Part shown: positions 10,368 to 16,778 of the stretch, in pieces
How the letters are laid out: each line of letters begins with the position of its first letter
How positions within the stretch are numbered: the stretch's first letter is position 1
DNA from: SAR202 cluster bacterium
GTDB taxonomy: Bacteria > Chloroflexota > Dehalococcoidia > Lucifugimonadales > VGZY01
Reading direction: 5' to 3'
DNA length: 34,024 nucleotides
Assembly (NCBI GenBank): GCA_016872355.1
Contig: VGZY01000002.1
Span: 68,484-102,507 of the forward strand
The notes under the pieces: generated by a model
The model's input: the letters and a program-made list of their open reading frames with translations, nothing else
What the model was told of the DNA's origin: nothing
The model's database searches: none
Translations under genes and position numbers: made by a program

Positions 10368-10410
10368 CATAAATATCCTAGCACAGGTAGTAGAGTCAGT
10401 TGGAATGTGT

Positions 10411-10419
10411 TGCTATACT
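10411..10419 (+). promoter_or_regulatory. extended -10 promoter element for galU
   Basis: TGCTATACT is identical to the element before rpsB. No good -35 is present. The predicted start near 10426 leaves a leader of about 47 nt to the TTG start of galU. Confidence 0.55.
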
Positions 10420-10472
10420 CGGTTAGAAGCGAGTTCCCCATCCTCTCAAGCTGCAACTTCCAGGAGGCCCCA

Positions 10473-11336
10473 TTGAAGGTACGAAAGGCTGTAATCCCCG
10501 TCGCAGGCTTCGGCACGAGGTTCCTGCCGGCAACGCGCGCCGTGCCCAAGAACCTACTGCCCGTGCTGGACACACCCGTGATCCACTTTGCGGTGGAGGA
10601 GGCGGCAAAAGCGGGGATAGAACACATCGTCCTCGTCATGTCTCAGCGTCAGGAAGCGATGGGCTACTACTTCGGCAAGTACACCGAGCTGGAGCTGGCA
10701 CTGGAGAAGAAGGGCAACAAGGCGATGCTGGAAAAGATGCTCGCTATCCCGAAGATGGTGGAGATCAGCTATGTCTACCAGCACGAGCAGATGGGCCTTG
10801 GCCACGCCGTGAAGACTGCAAAAGCGGTAGTGGGCAGGGAGCCGTTCGCCGTGTTCCTTCCAGACGACATCATCTGGTCAGAGAAGCCGACTATCGGATC
10901 GATGATCGATCTCTACAACCAGTACCAGTCAATCGTCCTGGCTATCAAGCAGGTGCCGGACGAGATGGTGCCTAACCTGGGGATCGTCGCCGGCAATCAG
11001 ATCGCCGACCAGGTGTACCAGGTGACGAAGATGGTGGAGAAGCCGAAGTTGGCGGACGCTCCGTCGAACCTGGCCATAATCGGACGGTACGTTCTCCCGC
11101 CGGAGATATTCGACGTGCTGGACCGCACGAAGCCGGGCGCCATCGGCGAGATACAGCTAACGGACGCAATGGCCACGCTTATGTCCTCCACCGGCAAGGC
11201 CTACGGCTACAAGTTCCACGGCGCACACTTCGATACCGGCGTTCCGCTGGGCATGCTCAAGGCCTCCGTCTACGCCGCCATGAAGCGGGAGGACCTGGCC
11301 CCGCAGCTCAAAGAGTGGCTGAAGAAGTACCAGTAG
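10473..11336 (+). CDS. galU: UTP-glucose-1-phosphate uridylyltransferase
   Basis: GalU makes UDP-glucose from UTP and glucose-1-phosphate for glycan and envelope polysaccharide synthesis. The TTG at 10473 has AGGAGG (10462-10467) at 5 nt and gives 287 residues. Upstream in-frame ATG 10407 would add residues that match nothing and lies upstream of the predicted transcription start. Motifs are the nucleotide-binding PVAGFGTRFLPATRAVPKN at the N terminus, VFLPDDI (metal and UTP binding), MVEKP and GEIQLTDAM. The product ends LKKYQ, and its TAG runs directly into repeat copy B. The three P-loop paralogues follow on the same strand after the repeat. Confidence 0.95.
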   Translation: MKVRKAVIPVAGFGTRFLPATRAVPKNLLPVLDTPVIHFAVEEAAKAGIEHIVLVMSQRQEAMGYYFGKYTELELALEKKGNKAMLEKMLAIPKMVEISYVYQHEQMGLGHAVKTAKAVVGREPFAVFLPDDIIWSEKPTIGSMIDLYNQYQSIVLAIKQVPDEMVPNLGIVAGNQIADQVYQVTKMVEKPKLADAPSNLAIIGRYVLPPEIFDVLDRTKPGAIGEIQLTDAMATLMSSTGKAYGYKFHGAHFDTGVPLGMLKASVYAAMKREDLAPQLKEWLKKYQ

Positions 11337-11474: not shown

Positions 11475-12191
11475 ATGCGACTTATTCTAGCCGGCTGCGA
11501 GTACTCGGGGACCACTACCCTTGCCTACCGCCTCCGCGACTGGATCCACACGGTCATCGGCGGCAACGTCAACCGGATCCACGACCACTTCAAGATACCT
11601 TACACGTTTGTCCATATGCCTGAGTACACTCCCACCCCGGACGCTACTCCGGACGAGGTGAAGAGCTTCCTCTCGCTCAGCCCGCGCATAATGGATACGG
11701 TGATGCGGCATAACTGCGTTTACCACTCCAAGGCCATCAAGGGCATGGAGGACAAGATCATCATCGGCATGCACATCGATGAGCTTGTCTACGGCCCTCG
11801 CTATTTCAACTACGGGCAGGCAGGCACGAATGGGGACAGGCGGGCGTTCGGCCTGGGCATCGAGCGGACGGTCCTGGCAGAGGCCCCTGATACCATCCTG
11901 GTCCACGTTCACGCCACCCCGGATGTGATCGCAAAGCGCATGAGGCAGAACCCCCACCCGAACGGACTTGTGAAGGAGAATGACATCCAGTTCGTCCTGG
12001 GCAGGTTCGCGGAGGAGGTCGGCCACTCCGTGCTTCGTCGGAAGATTGCTCTGGATACGAGCACGATGTCTGTGGAAGAGACCTTAAACGAATTCGTTCG
12101 CAAGGTTGAGCCGCTCATGGCGGACAACGATCGGCGGCGAATGCTCCTGCGCCAGGTCTGGCTCAAAGACGGCGCCGCGGCCGGGAAGTAG
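11475..12191 (+). CDS. P-loop protein with Lys-less Walker A, paralogue 1
   Basis: Function is not recognised. The 238-residue protein begins with a beta strand and the loop GCEYSGTTT (residues 7-15), which has the GxxxxG spacing of Walker A but Thr where the Lys should be. HDHFK (36-40) follows, then IIIGMHIDE (95-103), a Walker-B-like strand ending in an acidic pair. Near the C terminus comes a strand with ATPDVIAKRM (147-156) and a lid-like PHPNGLVKENDIQFVLGRF. The overall order resembles thymidylate/deoxynucleoside kinases. The loop itself equals the SGTT phosphosulfate loop of sulfotransferases. ATG 11475 has AGGAGG 4 nt upstream. It is the first of three tandem paralogues and the most divergent, with no WPH after DHFK. 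Confidence 0.8.
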   Translation: MRLILAGCEYSGTTTLAYRLRDWIHTVIGGNVNRIHDHFKIPYTFVHMPEYTPTPDATPDEVKSFLSLSPRIMDTVMRHNCVYHSKAIKGMEDKIIIGMHIDELVYGPRYFNYGQAGTNGDRRAFGLGIERTVLAEAPDTILVHVHATPDVIAKRMRQNPHPNGLVKENDIQFVLGRFAEEVGHSVLRRKIALDTSTMSVEETLNEFVRKVEPLMADNDRRRMLLRQVWLKDGAAAGK

Positions 12192-12199
12192 GTGCGCCA

Positions 12200-12967
12200 G
12201 TGAGACTGCTAATTGTCGGCTGTGAATACTCCGGCACCACCACGTTCACCTGGCAGGTGATGACGTGGGCCAAGAAGCACCTGGGAGCGCCGGACCTCGG
12301 CCCCCACGACCACTTCAAGTGGCCGCACATCGCACATCCAAAGGCCTCGTCCACCGAAGCGCACGACAAGTACTTACACGATTGGGAGGCCGGTCGCGGA
12401 CCGGACCCCACCACCCACGCGCTAACGCTGGAAGAAAAGATGCAGCTTTTGGACCTCCCGCCGACGATCCAGGAGATGTTCATGCGCTACCTGATCCAGT
12501 ACCACCTCCAGGACGCCTTCTACTCCGACCCGGACATGGTGATGGTGGGCATGCATTTCGACGAGGCAATCTACGCGCCGCTCTTCTACGGCTACGGCGC
12601 CGTTGGACAGTACGCGGCCCGTAACCACGAGTCGCGAATCGTGGAGCAGCGCCTTTACGACGTCGCGCCGGACCTGGTGCTTATCCAGGTCAAAGCGACT
12701 CCAGAGACGATTGCGAAGCGGCTAAAGGCAAAGCCACACCCGCACGGGATCATCAAGGAGAAGGACATCGAGCTCGTCCTTAAACGGTTCCAGCAGGAGT
12801 ACGAAGACTCGTCAATCTACCGCAGGTTCACAATCGACACGACGAGGGCGTCACCTGCTGAGTGCCTTGAGCAGTTTGTGGAGAACATGAAGCCGCTCTG
12901 GACCGAGTCGGACAGGATGCGGATGATGGCGCACAGGGAGCTTGCAAAGCAAGGGTACGGGGTGTAG
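12200..12967 (+). CDS. P-loop protein with Lys-less Walker A, paralogue 2
   Basis: Function is not recognised. The 255-residue paralogue of the preceding gene starts at GTG, 8 nt after its stop, with only a weak GGTG upstream. Shared landmarks fall at the same positions: GCEYSGTTT at 7-15, HDHFKWPH at 36-43, MVGMHFDEAIYAP, KATPETIAKRL, PHPHGIIKEKDIELVLKRF and DTTRASPAECLEQF. The C-terminal ESDRMRMM is shared in form with paralogue 3. It is closer to paralogue 3 than to paralogue 1 in length and in the region between residues 40 and 85. Tight spacing argues for translation from one mRNA with its neighbours. Confidence 0.8.
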   Translation: MRLLIVGCEYSGTTTFTWQVMTWAKKHLGAPDLGPHDHFKWPHIAHPKASSTEAHDKYLHDWEAGRGPDPTTHALTLEEKMQLLDLPPTIQEMFMRYLIQYHLQDAFYSDPDMVMVGMHFDEAIYAPLFYGYGAVGQYAARNHESRIVEQRLYDVAPDLVLIQVKATPETIAKRLKAKPHPHGIIKEKDIELVLKRFQQEYEDSSIYRRFTIDTTRASPAECLEQFVENMKPLWTESDRMRMMAHRELAKQGYGV

Positions 12968-12969
12968 AG

Positions 12970-13737
12970 ATGCGACTGCTGATAACCGGCGCCGAATACA
13001 CCGGCACAACGACCCTCTCGTGGGCGATTGTGGAGTGGATGCGGGAGAACATGGGTGTTGCCAACCTGTGGACGCACGACCACTTCAAATGGCCCCACCT
13101 GTCGCATCCCCGGGCGAGGTCTGCTGCGCACCAGGACGAGATGTATGCGGACTGGCTGGCGGGGAAGGCCGAGGACCCCACGCGCCTTGGCCTTACGCTG
13201 GAAGAGCAAAAGAAGATCATGGCGCTCAGCCCGCGGCTGAGGGAGATGTTCCAGCGCTACCTCGTCAGCTACCACGTGATGCCGGCCTTCTTCCAGGAGC
13301 CGGACTACATAGTCATTGGCATGCACATTGAAGAGGCGGTCTACGCGCCCATGTACATGGGGTACGGCCGCAATGGGGAGTACGGGGACCGCGCCGAGAT
13401 GGCCATGGACGTCGAGCAAGCGCTATTCAAGTACGCCCCGGACCTGGTCATGGTAATGCTGAACGCCTCGCCGGAGGTCGTCTCGAGCCGTATGAAAGCG
13501 ACGCCCCACACCAACTCGATTGTGCCAGAACGCGACGTGCCCACCGTTCTGCGCCGGTTTGAAGAGGTATACGCAGCCTCTTCCATCCACCGGAAATTCA
13601 AGATCGACACGAGCAAGGCGACCGTGCAGGAGTCGCTGGCCGAATTCCTTCAGAAGATGGAGCCGCTGTGGTCTGACACGGACCGCCTCCGGATCATGTC
13701 CCACAAGCAGCTACGGAGATTCGGCCACAAGGTGTAG
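12970..13737 (+). CDS. P-loop protein with Lys-less Walker A, paralogue 3
   Basis: Function is not recognised. The 255-residue third member starts at ATG two bases after the stop of paralogue 2. Its loop is GAEYTGTTT (7-15), again lacking the Walker A Lys. HDHFKWPHLSHPRA is at 36-49, VIGMHIEEAVYAP replaces DE by EE, and NASPEVVSSRM and DTSKATVQESLAEF follow. The same architecture and 255-residue length as paralogue 2 point to a recent duplication relative to paralogue 1. The gene ends 14 nt before a strong 24-bp hairpin (13752-13810) that separates it from the convergent flotillin gene. Confidence 0.8.
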   Translation: MRLLITGAEYTGTTTLSWAIVEWMRENMGVANLWTHDHFKWPHLSHPRARSAAHQDEMYADWLAGKAEDPTRLGLTLEEQKKIMALSPRLREMFQRYLVSYHVMPAFFQEPDYIVIGMHIEEAVYAPMYMGYGRNGEYGDRAEMAMDVEQALFKYAPDLVMVMLNASPEVVSSRMKATPHTNSIVPERDVPTVLRRFEEVYAASSIHRKFKIDTSKATVQESLAEFLQKMEPLWSDTDRLRIMSHKQLRRFGHKV

Positions 13738-13827: not shown

Positions 13828-15281
13828 CTACCCGCTCCTGGTGCCGTCCGCGTCCACCTCGTCCGCCCCGTGAGCGCCACCGTTCTGCGACGTCATGACG
13901 CCGGGCAGGTTCTTGAGGGTCTTGATTATGTCTATGCCTGTGAGCGACTCCACGAGAGCGGGCAGCTGAGCGATCGTGTTGGAGACGTCGCGCGTGACCT
14001 TGCTCGCGCCCGCACCGTCACCGTTACTGCCTCCATTGCTAATTACGACAATGCTGTCCGTCTTTGCCAGTGGCTCAGCGACGGCCTTTGCGAGCTCAGA
14101 CAACGACTGGAAAATCTGTTGGACCAGGGCCGCCTGCCCGTACTCCTTCCAGGCCTCGGCCTTCTTCTGCATCGCCTCGGCTTCTGCGAGTCCTCTCGCA
14201 CGGATGGCGTCCGCCTCCGCCTCGCCGCGCAGGCGAATGGCGTCCGCGTCTGCCTGGCCGTGCAGGCGTATCGACTGGGCCTGGGCCTCCGCCTCTGCGA
14301 TCGCCCGGGCCTTGTTGCCCGCGGCGAGCGCCTCGAGCTGGTACTTTTCTGCATCGGCGCTGATCTCCACGCGCCGCTTGTTGCCCTCGGCGACGATCAT
14401 CAGCTTGTCGCGCTCCGCCTCCGCCGGCCTTCTGACCGTTGCATCCAGCTCGCGTTGCCGGCGCAGTATCTCCTGGTCCTGTATCTGAATCTGCTTCTGG
14501 CGTTCGACAACGTCGATCTGCAGCTCTTCGGACCTGATCGTCTGCTTCGTTTTCGCCGCCTGGAGCTGGTACGCCAGCTCGGCCTCGACCTTGCTGGCGT
14601 TTACCTCCTGGTCGTACGAAGCCTTCTGCGTTGAGAAGTCCTTCTGCGATTCAGCGATCTGCGTGTCGGCAGCGAACTTGGCCGCCTGGCGCACCTGCTC
14701 GGCCTGGGCGGCCTTGATGCCCGCGTCGCGCGCGGCCTCAGCCTCGCCGATGGCGGCATCGCGCTTCACCTCCGCGGTGCGCTTCTTGCCCAGCGCCTCC
14801 AGGTAGCCGTGGGAGTCCTGGATATCGTGGATGGTAAAGCTCACGATCTCCATGCCCATATTGGTCATGTCGGTGTGGGCAACTTCGCGCACCTTGTCGG
14901 CGAATGTGGCGCGGTCGCGGTAGATCTCCTCAACCGTCATTGTGCCCAGGATGGCGCGCTGCTGGCCCTCAAGGGTCTGCAGAGCGATGCGCGCGACTTC
15001 CTGCGGGACTTGCCAAGAAACTGCTCCGCCGCCGTCCTTATCGCCTCCTCGCTCCTGCCAACCTTCACCTGCGCCACGCCGTCCACGGAAACCGCCACGC
15101 CTTCTTGAGTGTAGACGCGCTCGGTGACGACGTTCAGCGTCATAACCTCCAGCGACAGCACCTGGGGCTTCTCAAGGATCGGAATGACAAATGAGCGGCC
15201 ACCGACCTTGATCTTCCGCAGTTTTGTACCGCCGGATACGATCAGGGCCTCGTTTGGACCTACCTTGTGAAAACCGGCCAT
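13828..15281 (-). CDS. flotillin-like SPFH-domain protein, split by a frameshift
   Basis: Flotillins are membrane-associated scaffold proteins with an N-terminal SPFH/band-7 domain and a long coiled coil. ATG 15281 (SD AAGGAG about 7 nt upstream) reads 92 residues through the SPFH start, ending AAEQFLGKS, then loses the frame. The correct continuation QEVARIALQTLEGQQRAILG lies in another frame and leads into MTVEEIYRDRATFADKV (frame open 13828-14940). One missing base in the GGG run at 15005-15007 explains it. The rest is intact: SPFH remainder, then a long Ala/Glu/Arg-rich coiled coil (AEAEA, LRGEAEADAIRARG repeats) and a Gly-rich tail. It forms an operon with nfeD upstream. It is either a recent pseudogene or a base-call error. 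Confidence 0.85.
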
Positions 15282-15302: not shown

Positions 15303-16667
15303 TTAGGGCTTGCCTTGCGGGAGCCTGGGCTCCTTGACCATCCTCTCAACCTTCAGGACGTCGCGGTAGACGCCTGTTACCTGGATATGCTCGTCCTTGG
15401 GAATGAAACCCTCGGTGTAGTCCGCCGCCGCTACGTACTCGCGACCGTTGACCATTACCTTGCCGGAGGGACGCAGGTCCGTTAACGATATGCCCCATTC
15501 CCCAATGATCTCCAGTTCGGAAGGGTCAATGTTCCCCGTGTTGCTGCCGACGTCCTGCCTTGCGAACCTGAAGAACACGGCGAAAGTGGTCAGCGCGATT
15601 GCCGCCATGGCGCCGATTATCCACAGGCTTACGCGGAGGCTTGGCTCAGGGAAGTCCGGGGCCGAAAAGTAGCCGCCGAACAGGAGCAGCCCCCCGAGGA
15701 CCAGGGCAACCACGCCGCCGACGCCGAGGACCGTGTGGCCGTCGATGTGGACTTCGAGGTAAAAGAGGACCATTGCGAAGACCAGAAGACCCACGGCTAT
15801 CCAGTTTACGGGGAGGTTGCCGAAGCCGACCAGCCCCAGGGCGATGCATATGCCGCCGACAATTCCCGGGCCGATCAGACCCGGCGTGGCGATCTCGATG
15901 ATGATGGCAACGCCGCCGATCACGAAGAGCAGAAATGCGATGTTAGGGTTCGCGAGGAAGCCGATGATGTTGTCCAGTATCGTCGGCTCGACACTGCTGA
16001 TACTCGCTCCCGCGACGCTCACCGTCACCTCGCCCGAGGCCGTCCGCGCCGTGCGCCCATCGACCAGCGCCAGCAGCTCGTTAAGGTCGTGGGCGGTGAA
16101 GTCGATGATCCCGGCGTCCAGCGCCTCGGTGGTGGAGAACGACCACGCGAGCGAGACCGTCTCCTAGAGCGCGGCACCGTTTCGGCCCCGCTCCTGAGCT
16201 ATGCTGCGGATGAAGGCGCGGGTGTCCTCGTTTACCTTCCGGCCGAGTGTTCCCTCAATGTCGCCCCCGTCGCCGTTTATGGGAGATGCTGCGCCAATGT
16301 TGGTGCCGGGGGCCATAACGGCGAAATTGGCGGCGGCGGTAACGAATGTGCCGGCGGATGCTGCCTGCGCCCCGCCGGGTGCCACGAAAACCGCCACCGG
16401 AACATCGGAGGCAAGTATGGAGGCCACGATATCACGTGTCGAGACGACAAGGCCGCCGGGCGTGTCCATCTGGATGACGACAAGGCGCGCGTCCTCGGAC
16501 TCTGCGCGGTCTATGCCCCGCGCAACGCGCTTGGCGACCATGGAGTCTATTGGGCCGTCTATCTGAACGAGATACACGGTGTTGGTGGCAGTGGAGGATG
16601 TCGCCGCGCCGATGAAGACCGAGAGCAGGCCCAGGGCAAACGCAAGGAGCCCTGTTTTCCTGACCAT
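15303..16667 (-). CDS. NfeD family membrane serine protease, interrupted by an in-frame TAG
   Basis: NfeD proteins couple a ClpP-like protease domain to a transmembrane region and a C-terminal OB fold, and are usually encoded beside flotillins. ATG 16667 (AAAGGAG about 6 nt upstream) gives a signal/TM segment (residues 4-24), then the protease domain with MDTPGG (68-72), the presumed nucleophile Ser104 in QAASAGT and Lys144 in LGRKVNEDT. Codon 168 is TAG (16164-16166), right after RGRNGAAL. The same frame continues as ETVSLAWSFSTTEALDAGIIDF, four or so TM segments and the OB fold (GEWGISLTDLRPSGKVMVNG), ending TAA at 15303. Total length would be 454. The downstream part could restart at GTG/ATG near 16028. 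Confidence 0.85.
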
Positions 16668-16778
16668 GACGCGCTCCTTTCCGGTTGTTTCGCAGGGTGC
16701 CGGCGGCCATCCGCGTCGGCCGTCCTGCATGTTGTCCATAATATTCATGGATGATAGCGAAAAGTCGCTGCAACGCGC

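Follow-up and report, generated by a model that had tools for sequence, protein, structure and literature searches.

The window analysed here, a 34,024-nucleotide stretch of a SAR202 contig, contains three tandem genes encoding paralogous proteins (Table 1). They lie on the same strand downstream of a nucleotidyl transferase gene, which from reading its sequence we take to be of the UTP-glucose-1-phosphate uridylyltransferase (GalU) type. All three reading frames are intact, separated by 8 bases (genes 1 and 2) and 2 bases (genes 2 and 3), and their products share pairwise identities of 37, 38 and 46%. The comparison of gene 2 with gene 3 gave an E value of 1e-88, so the resemblance is not due to chance. 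No Pfam, NCBIfam or PHROG model matched any of the three at its cut-off, and the matches below the cut-off were to kinase and AAA-type P-loop models. The trio almost certainly represents an undescribed P-loop kinase-like family, in keeping with a preliminary description, made from the sequence alone, that had called the family unrecognised.

Table 1. The tandem kinase-like genes, their lysine-bearing motifs and the upstream gene, in window coordinates.
Feature	Position	Strand	Description	Evidence
Nucleotidyl transferase, upstream	10407-11336	+		Pfam NTP_transferase, E 1e-31
Gene 1	11475-12191	+	238 aa, Thr13/Lys40 kinase-like paralogue	ORF, translation, family tree, residue states
Gene 1 P-loop	11493-11519	+	GCEYSGTTT, residues 7-15	Translation, alignment with Lys13 relatives
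Gene 1 HDHFK	11580-11594	+	Residues 36-40, proposed relocated lysine	
Gene 2	12200-12967	+	255 aa, GTG start, Thr13/Lys40 kinase-like paralogue	
Gene 2 P-loop	12218-12244	+	GCEYSGTTT, residues 7-15	Translation, alignment with Lys13 relatives
Gene 2 HDHFK	12305-12319	+	Residues 36-40, proposed relocated lysine	
Gene 3	12970-13737	+	255 aa, Thr13/Lys40 kinase-like paralogue; structure modelled	
Gene 3 P-loop	12988-13014	+	GAEYTGTTT, residues 7-15	Translation, alignment with Lys13 relatives
Gene 3 HDHFK	13075-13089	+	Residues 36-40, on modelled strand 2 (35-40)	

Several motifs had been described as common to the three proteins. The P-loop G[CA]EY[ST]GTTT at residues 7-15, HDHFK at 36-40 and GMH[IF][DE]E are indeed present in all three translations, and the P-loop departs from the Walker A consensus GxxxxGK[ST] in having Thr at the Lys position, again in every member of the trio. 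Two further blocks proved less uniform than reported: ASPE...R is exact in gene 3, genes 1 and 2 having ATPD and ATPE, and PH....KE.DI holds for genes 1 and 2, gene 3 having PHTNSIVPERDV instead.

A family search with mapping of taxonomy and gene neighbours, which the preliminary description had proposed, gathered 198 distinct members with a patchy distribution and varied catabolic neighbours (residue numbers below follow gene 3). The scan of the collection selected on the P-loop motif, not on position 40. The SAR202 genome itself (3.07 Mb, 133 contigs) has six family copies, and two same-genome relatives (L003 and L006) carry Lys13 together with Thr40. Directly downstream of one of these Lys13 paralogues, on contig C27, is an ORF (L006, 2035-2487) that from its sequence is presumably NUDIX-like. 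Within the same order the family was found in 16 of 59 genomes, one of them giving up to 27 matches, some of which are pieces of one gene; across the phylum it was found in 13 of the 301 genomes drawn (this one included), and its spread is therefore patchy. Named relatives come from SAR202/Dehalococcoidia, Caldilineae, other Chloroflexota, Poribacteria and Latescibacterota, and further ones from records labelled Gemmatimonadota and Acidobacteriota. Viral contigs queried with gene 2 yielded no relative. A role in anti-phage defence was considered and rejected, PADLOC having given no match.

Comparison of the members revealed two kinds of protein: those with the P-loop GCEYSGKTT and a residue other than Lys at position 40, and those, including the trio, with a Thr-type P-loop and HDH[FW]K. 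Lys40 occurred in none of the 58 Lys13 members, in which residue 40 is Thr (37), Ser (13) or another non-Lys residue. It was present in 123 of the 140 members that lack Lys13, among them some with Ser, Ala, Gly or Asn in place of Thr13, and the two lysines were never found together (0/198). Around residue 40, HDH and Pro42 serve as anchors of the alignment. Within either set, Lys is found in at least 90% of members at a single position, 13 in one and 40 in the other. Divergence between the sets reached 1.0 at the two lysine columns, against a highest value of 0.65 elsewhere; since the sets were defined by residues 13 and 40, the informative part of this result is that neither set holds the other's lysine. 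Lys40 is kept across 123 sequences with a median identity of 41%, and residue 13 remains Thr in this set (97% by weight). Common to both sets are G7, G12, Thr/Ser14, Asp37, His38, Arg96, His102 and Arg174, the last, a LID arginine after strand 4, being present in every member. The lysine of HDHFK had been quoted before, and its covariation with residue 13 became visible only from the relatives. The earlier suggestions of a Lys-independent kinase and of a non-catalytic nucleotide sensor both overlook this reciprocal lysine.

Seventeen members have neither lysine, so loss alone also occurs; their other conserved residues are still kept, and no third conserved lysine that might rescue them was seen. 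Two of these (L259, 272-961, minus strand; L269, 257-928, plus strand) carry Arg as residue 14 of the P-loop (GARTL and GVRTL), possibly another form of compensation. Another five (L183, L184, L185, L186 and L295), from Latescibacterota-type genomes and one Poribacteria genome, combine GCEY[ST]GV[ST]T with DDHFT, and four of the five have an aminotransferase class V gene downstream. The two designs also occur side by side: a tandem array at L078 (5244-7464) consists of Thr13/Lys40, Lys13/Gln40 and Thr13/Lys40 members.

An AlphaFold2 model of gene 3, based on an alignment of 22 sequences, had a mean pLDDT of 91.3 and a pTM of 0.88. The Lys13 paralogue L003, predicted without an alignment, gave a pLDDT of 43 and was unusable. 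Thymidylate kinases headed the structural matches of the gene 3 model (Z 16.0, rmsd 3.0, 180 residues aligned), and comparison with YorR and with a deoxyadenosine kinase gave Z scores of 15.4 and 14.8. The predicted fold of the trio is thus that of a thymidylate-kinase-like P-loop kinase. A profile of the Lys13 set matched the thymidylate kinases of related genomes with an E value of 6.8e-7 and a probability of 85%, collinear over most of its length, and a profile of the Lys40 set matched them more weakly (probability 35%). The resemblance to thymidylate and deoxynucleoside kinases noted earlier is therefore borne out by the predicted fold, the structural matches and the profile alignment with thymidylate kinases.

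The same alignment places residue 40. From the P-loop onward, and free of gaps, HDHFTIP of the Lys13 set falls on REPGSTP of thymidylate kinases, such that residue 40 lies in the REPGG loop, which contacts the phosphoryl acceptor. Since the profiles of the Lys13 and Lys40 sets match each other with an E value of 8e-94, the two sets are near-certain homologues and this placement carries over to the Lys40 set. Via the RFPxR motif, we take residue 40 to be the equivalent of Arg45 of human thymidylate kinase. In the human enzyme (1NN5), coordination of the second substrate involves Arg45 and Pro43, among other residues given in a published table (PMC9599734). By homology, then, Lys40 is assigned to the acceptor side of the transfer site.

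The likeness to known enzymes is partial in each case. With thymidylate kinase (PF02223) the P-loop and REPGG loop are collinear, Arg96 falls on the AAR arginine and RFEE on DRFE, whereas the DR[FYH] that follows strand 3 in thymidylate kinase is replaced by GxHxEE. PF02223 gave no match to the trio at E 1, and its best score among the relatives, 17 bits, fell short of the cut-off of 27. The trio was also rejected as the cell's thymidylate kinase, because a separate one exists in the genome. The best sequence match of solved structure was YorR of Bacillus phage SPbeta (PDB 2axp, 3kb2; E 1.1e-5 with the Lys40 set); it spans strand 3 to strand 5 and includes the LID stretch, but leaves out the N-terminal third with the P-loop. 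A literature search covering few subscription journals returned nothing on YorR as a deoxynucleoside kinase, or on its substrate or function. Deoxynucleoside kinases (PF01712, for example the Mycoplasma deoxyadenosine kinase 2jat) resemble the trio in fold, as the Z score above indicates, and in weak sub-threshold profile matches. They differ in that their EPV at the end of strand 2 is replaced by HDH[FW][KT] in both sets, and in that their Walker A lysine is absent from the trio.

The reciprocal distribution of the two lysines suggests the relocation of a catalytic residue that has long been regarded as fixed. We propose a model whereby the three proteins are paralogous small-molecule kinases with a P-loop fold like that of thymidylate and deoxynucleoside kinases. 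In the ancestor of their clade, Lys13 would have been exchanged for Thr and a lysine gained where strand 2 ends, at residue 40. Lys40 would most likely neutralise and orient the transferred ATP phosphate in place of Lys13, and the glycine-rich loop, the Mg-binding Thr/Ser14 and the LID arginine would keep their usual roles. Gene duplication would then have been followed by diversification, probably toward different organic acids or sugars, with acceptors supplied by the expanded catabolic enzymes of the lineage. We lean slightly toward the view that the proteins of the trio are active kinases whose Walker A lysine has moved to residue 40. The wider proposition, that an entire, actively duplicating family of P-loop kinases carries out phosphoryl transfer with its Walker A lysine moved to the acceptor side, at the end of strand 2, is evenly balanced, and a relocated lysine with retained activity appears to us about even to somewhat likely.

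WNK protein kinases offer a parallel: their usual ATP-contacting lysine is replaced by one on strand 2 (PMC4718504). In both cases the canonical lysine is lost and one other invariant lysine gained; the WNK enzymes, however, have the unrelated protein-kinase fold, and the substitution demonstrated there by structure and assay is here inferred. The Walker A lysine of P-loop enzymes is held to be universal; its conservation has been described in that very term and a regulatory role built on it (PMC8517177). If our reading is correct, geometry can replace this residue, and since both designs are paralogous within one genome, the swap could be run in both directions by exchanging two residues. Our literature search, which covered few subscription journals, turned up no report of a Walker A lysine that had moved.

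How often the exchange took place bears on its interpretation. In a tree built without the columns for residues 13 and 40, Lys13 forms branched deeply at several points, and one large group took in most Lys40 forms. A tree with all Lys40 forms in a single clade was not rejected and in fact scored higher (p-AU 0.69), so that one ancestral exchange suffices. The tree is unrooted, and we regard Lys13 as ancestral because it is universal in P-loop kinases. Independent repeated swaps were not obtained, the independent-pairs test being without power. The case for relocation therefore rests on the retention of Lys40, not on repetition of the exchange, and a possible single event means that the exchange cannot by itself prove that the two lysines are coupled. 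Also weighing against relocation are the seventeen members that lack both lysines yet retain the remaining conserved residues, and the weaker profile match of the Lys40 set to thymidylate kinases.

This is the point at which the main rival explanation enters, namely that Lys40 is a specificity residue for a new acidic or phosphorylated acceptor and that Lys13 was lost separately, the LID and other arginines being sufficient for catalysis. We consider this possible but unlikely. In its favour, the counterpart of residue 40 in the alignment, human Arg45, binds the acceptor; the exchange may have been one event, in which case the two changes need no link; and members with neither lysine exist. 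On the other hand, such a role would allow Lys13 and Lys40 to occur together, yet no member combines them, and the many paralogues that retain Lys40 are divergent and presumably act on different acceptors. Given a single event, the absence of double-lysine members cannot settle the matter.

Another explanation, which we hold to be improbable, is that the Thr13 forms are pseudo-kinases, binding nucleotides or metabolites without catalysis, for instance as regulators of Lys13 enzymes in the same cell. In favour of this, catalysis normally depends on the residue that they have lost, a single genome can hold both Lys13 and Thr13 paralogues, a tandem array with the two kinds mixed exists, and so do members lacking both lysines. 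Against this, Thr/Ser14, Arg96, His102, Asp37-His38 and Arg174 are as conserved as in the Lys13 forms, and a new invariant lysine would be unexpected at a dead site. Moreover, in many genomes the Thr13/Lys40 forms are the sole copies found.

Very improbable is a sulfotransferase-like protein, the first reading offered in the preliminary description (which overall is partly supported), or another transferase that uses PAPS or polyphosphate instead of ATP. The loop letters SGTT do match the 5'-phosphosulfate loop of cytosolic-type sulfotransferases, but that loop is PKSGTT, with a Lys ahead of SGTT, and residue 10 is Tyr in all 61 aligned Lys40-set sequences. No sulfotransferase profile appeared among the 25 families listed, of 47, for 61 Thr-type members (E 0.5), an absence that is weak evidence, and kinase-type P-loop models recurred. 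An ordinary Walker A lysine is found in the deeper relatives, the kinase LID arginine is invariant, and sequence comparison with solved structures led to kinase-like ones. We reject a sulfotransferase origin as unlikely, given the homology to Walker A members and the lack of matches among the families listed.

Returning to the proposed kinases, their neighbours may hint at the substrate. Genes on the same strand beside family members encode aldo/keto reductases, amidohydrolases, DHDPS-family proteins, PhyH proteins and mandelate-racemase-like enolases. Caldilineae copies follow a UxuA-like gene (PF03786, E 7e-49), and a copy in the SAR202 genome itself, on contig C62, is flanked by two DHDPS-family genes. 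Over the 59 genomes, family copy number rose with that of the enolase superfamily (rho 0.58, p 2e-6, uncorrected for ancestry; 0.53 given genome size), and no rise was seen with flavin monooxygenases over the same genomes. The main exceptions to the enolase correlation are two small genomes (G028 and G057) with 25 and 41 enolase-superfamily matches and no family copy. SAR202 enolase expansions have been annotated mostly as galactonate and rhamnonate dehydratases (PMC6946804). A sugar acid or related organic acid is a candidate acceptor, although a doubtful one. If the model holds, an unnamed kinase expansion accompanies the sugar-acid-dehydratase-type enolase expansion of these bacteria, which are considered consumers of the ocean's recalcitrant carbon.

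The gene order of the window recurs in SAR202 ALOHA_A2.5_112 (L037, 3455-6744), where a tandem triplet of family members again lies downstream of a GalU-like gene; the second protein of that triplet is without the second lysine (HDHWQ).

Two genes downstream of the trio, on the minus strand, look split. A flotillin/band-7 gene (13828-15281) appears to be interrupted by a frameshift near 14940: the ORF at 14937-15281 corresponds to its N-terminal part and that at 13828-14940 to the rest, with Band_7 positions 106-174 matching residues 1-69 of the latter. The split may be an assembly error or may mark a pseudogene. Similarly, an NfeD-type gene (15303-16748) has its NfeD1b N-terminal domain in 16164-16748 and its membrane and C-terminal domains in 15303-16028.
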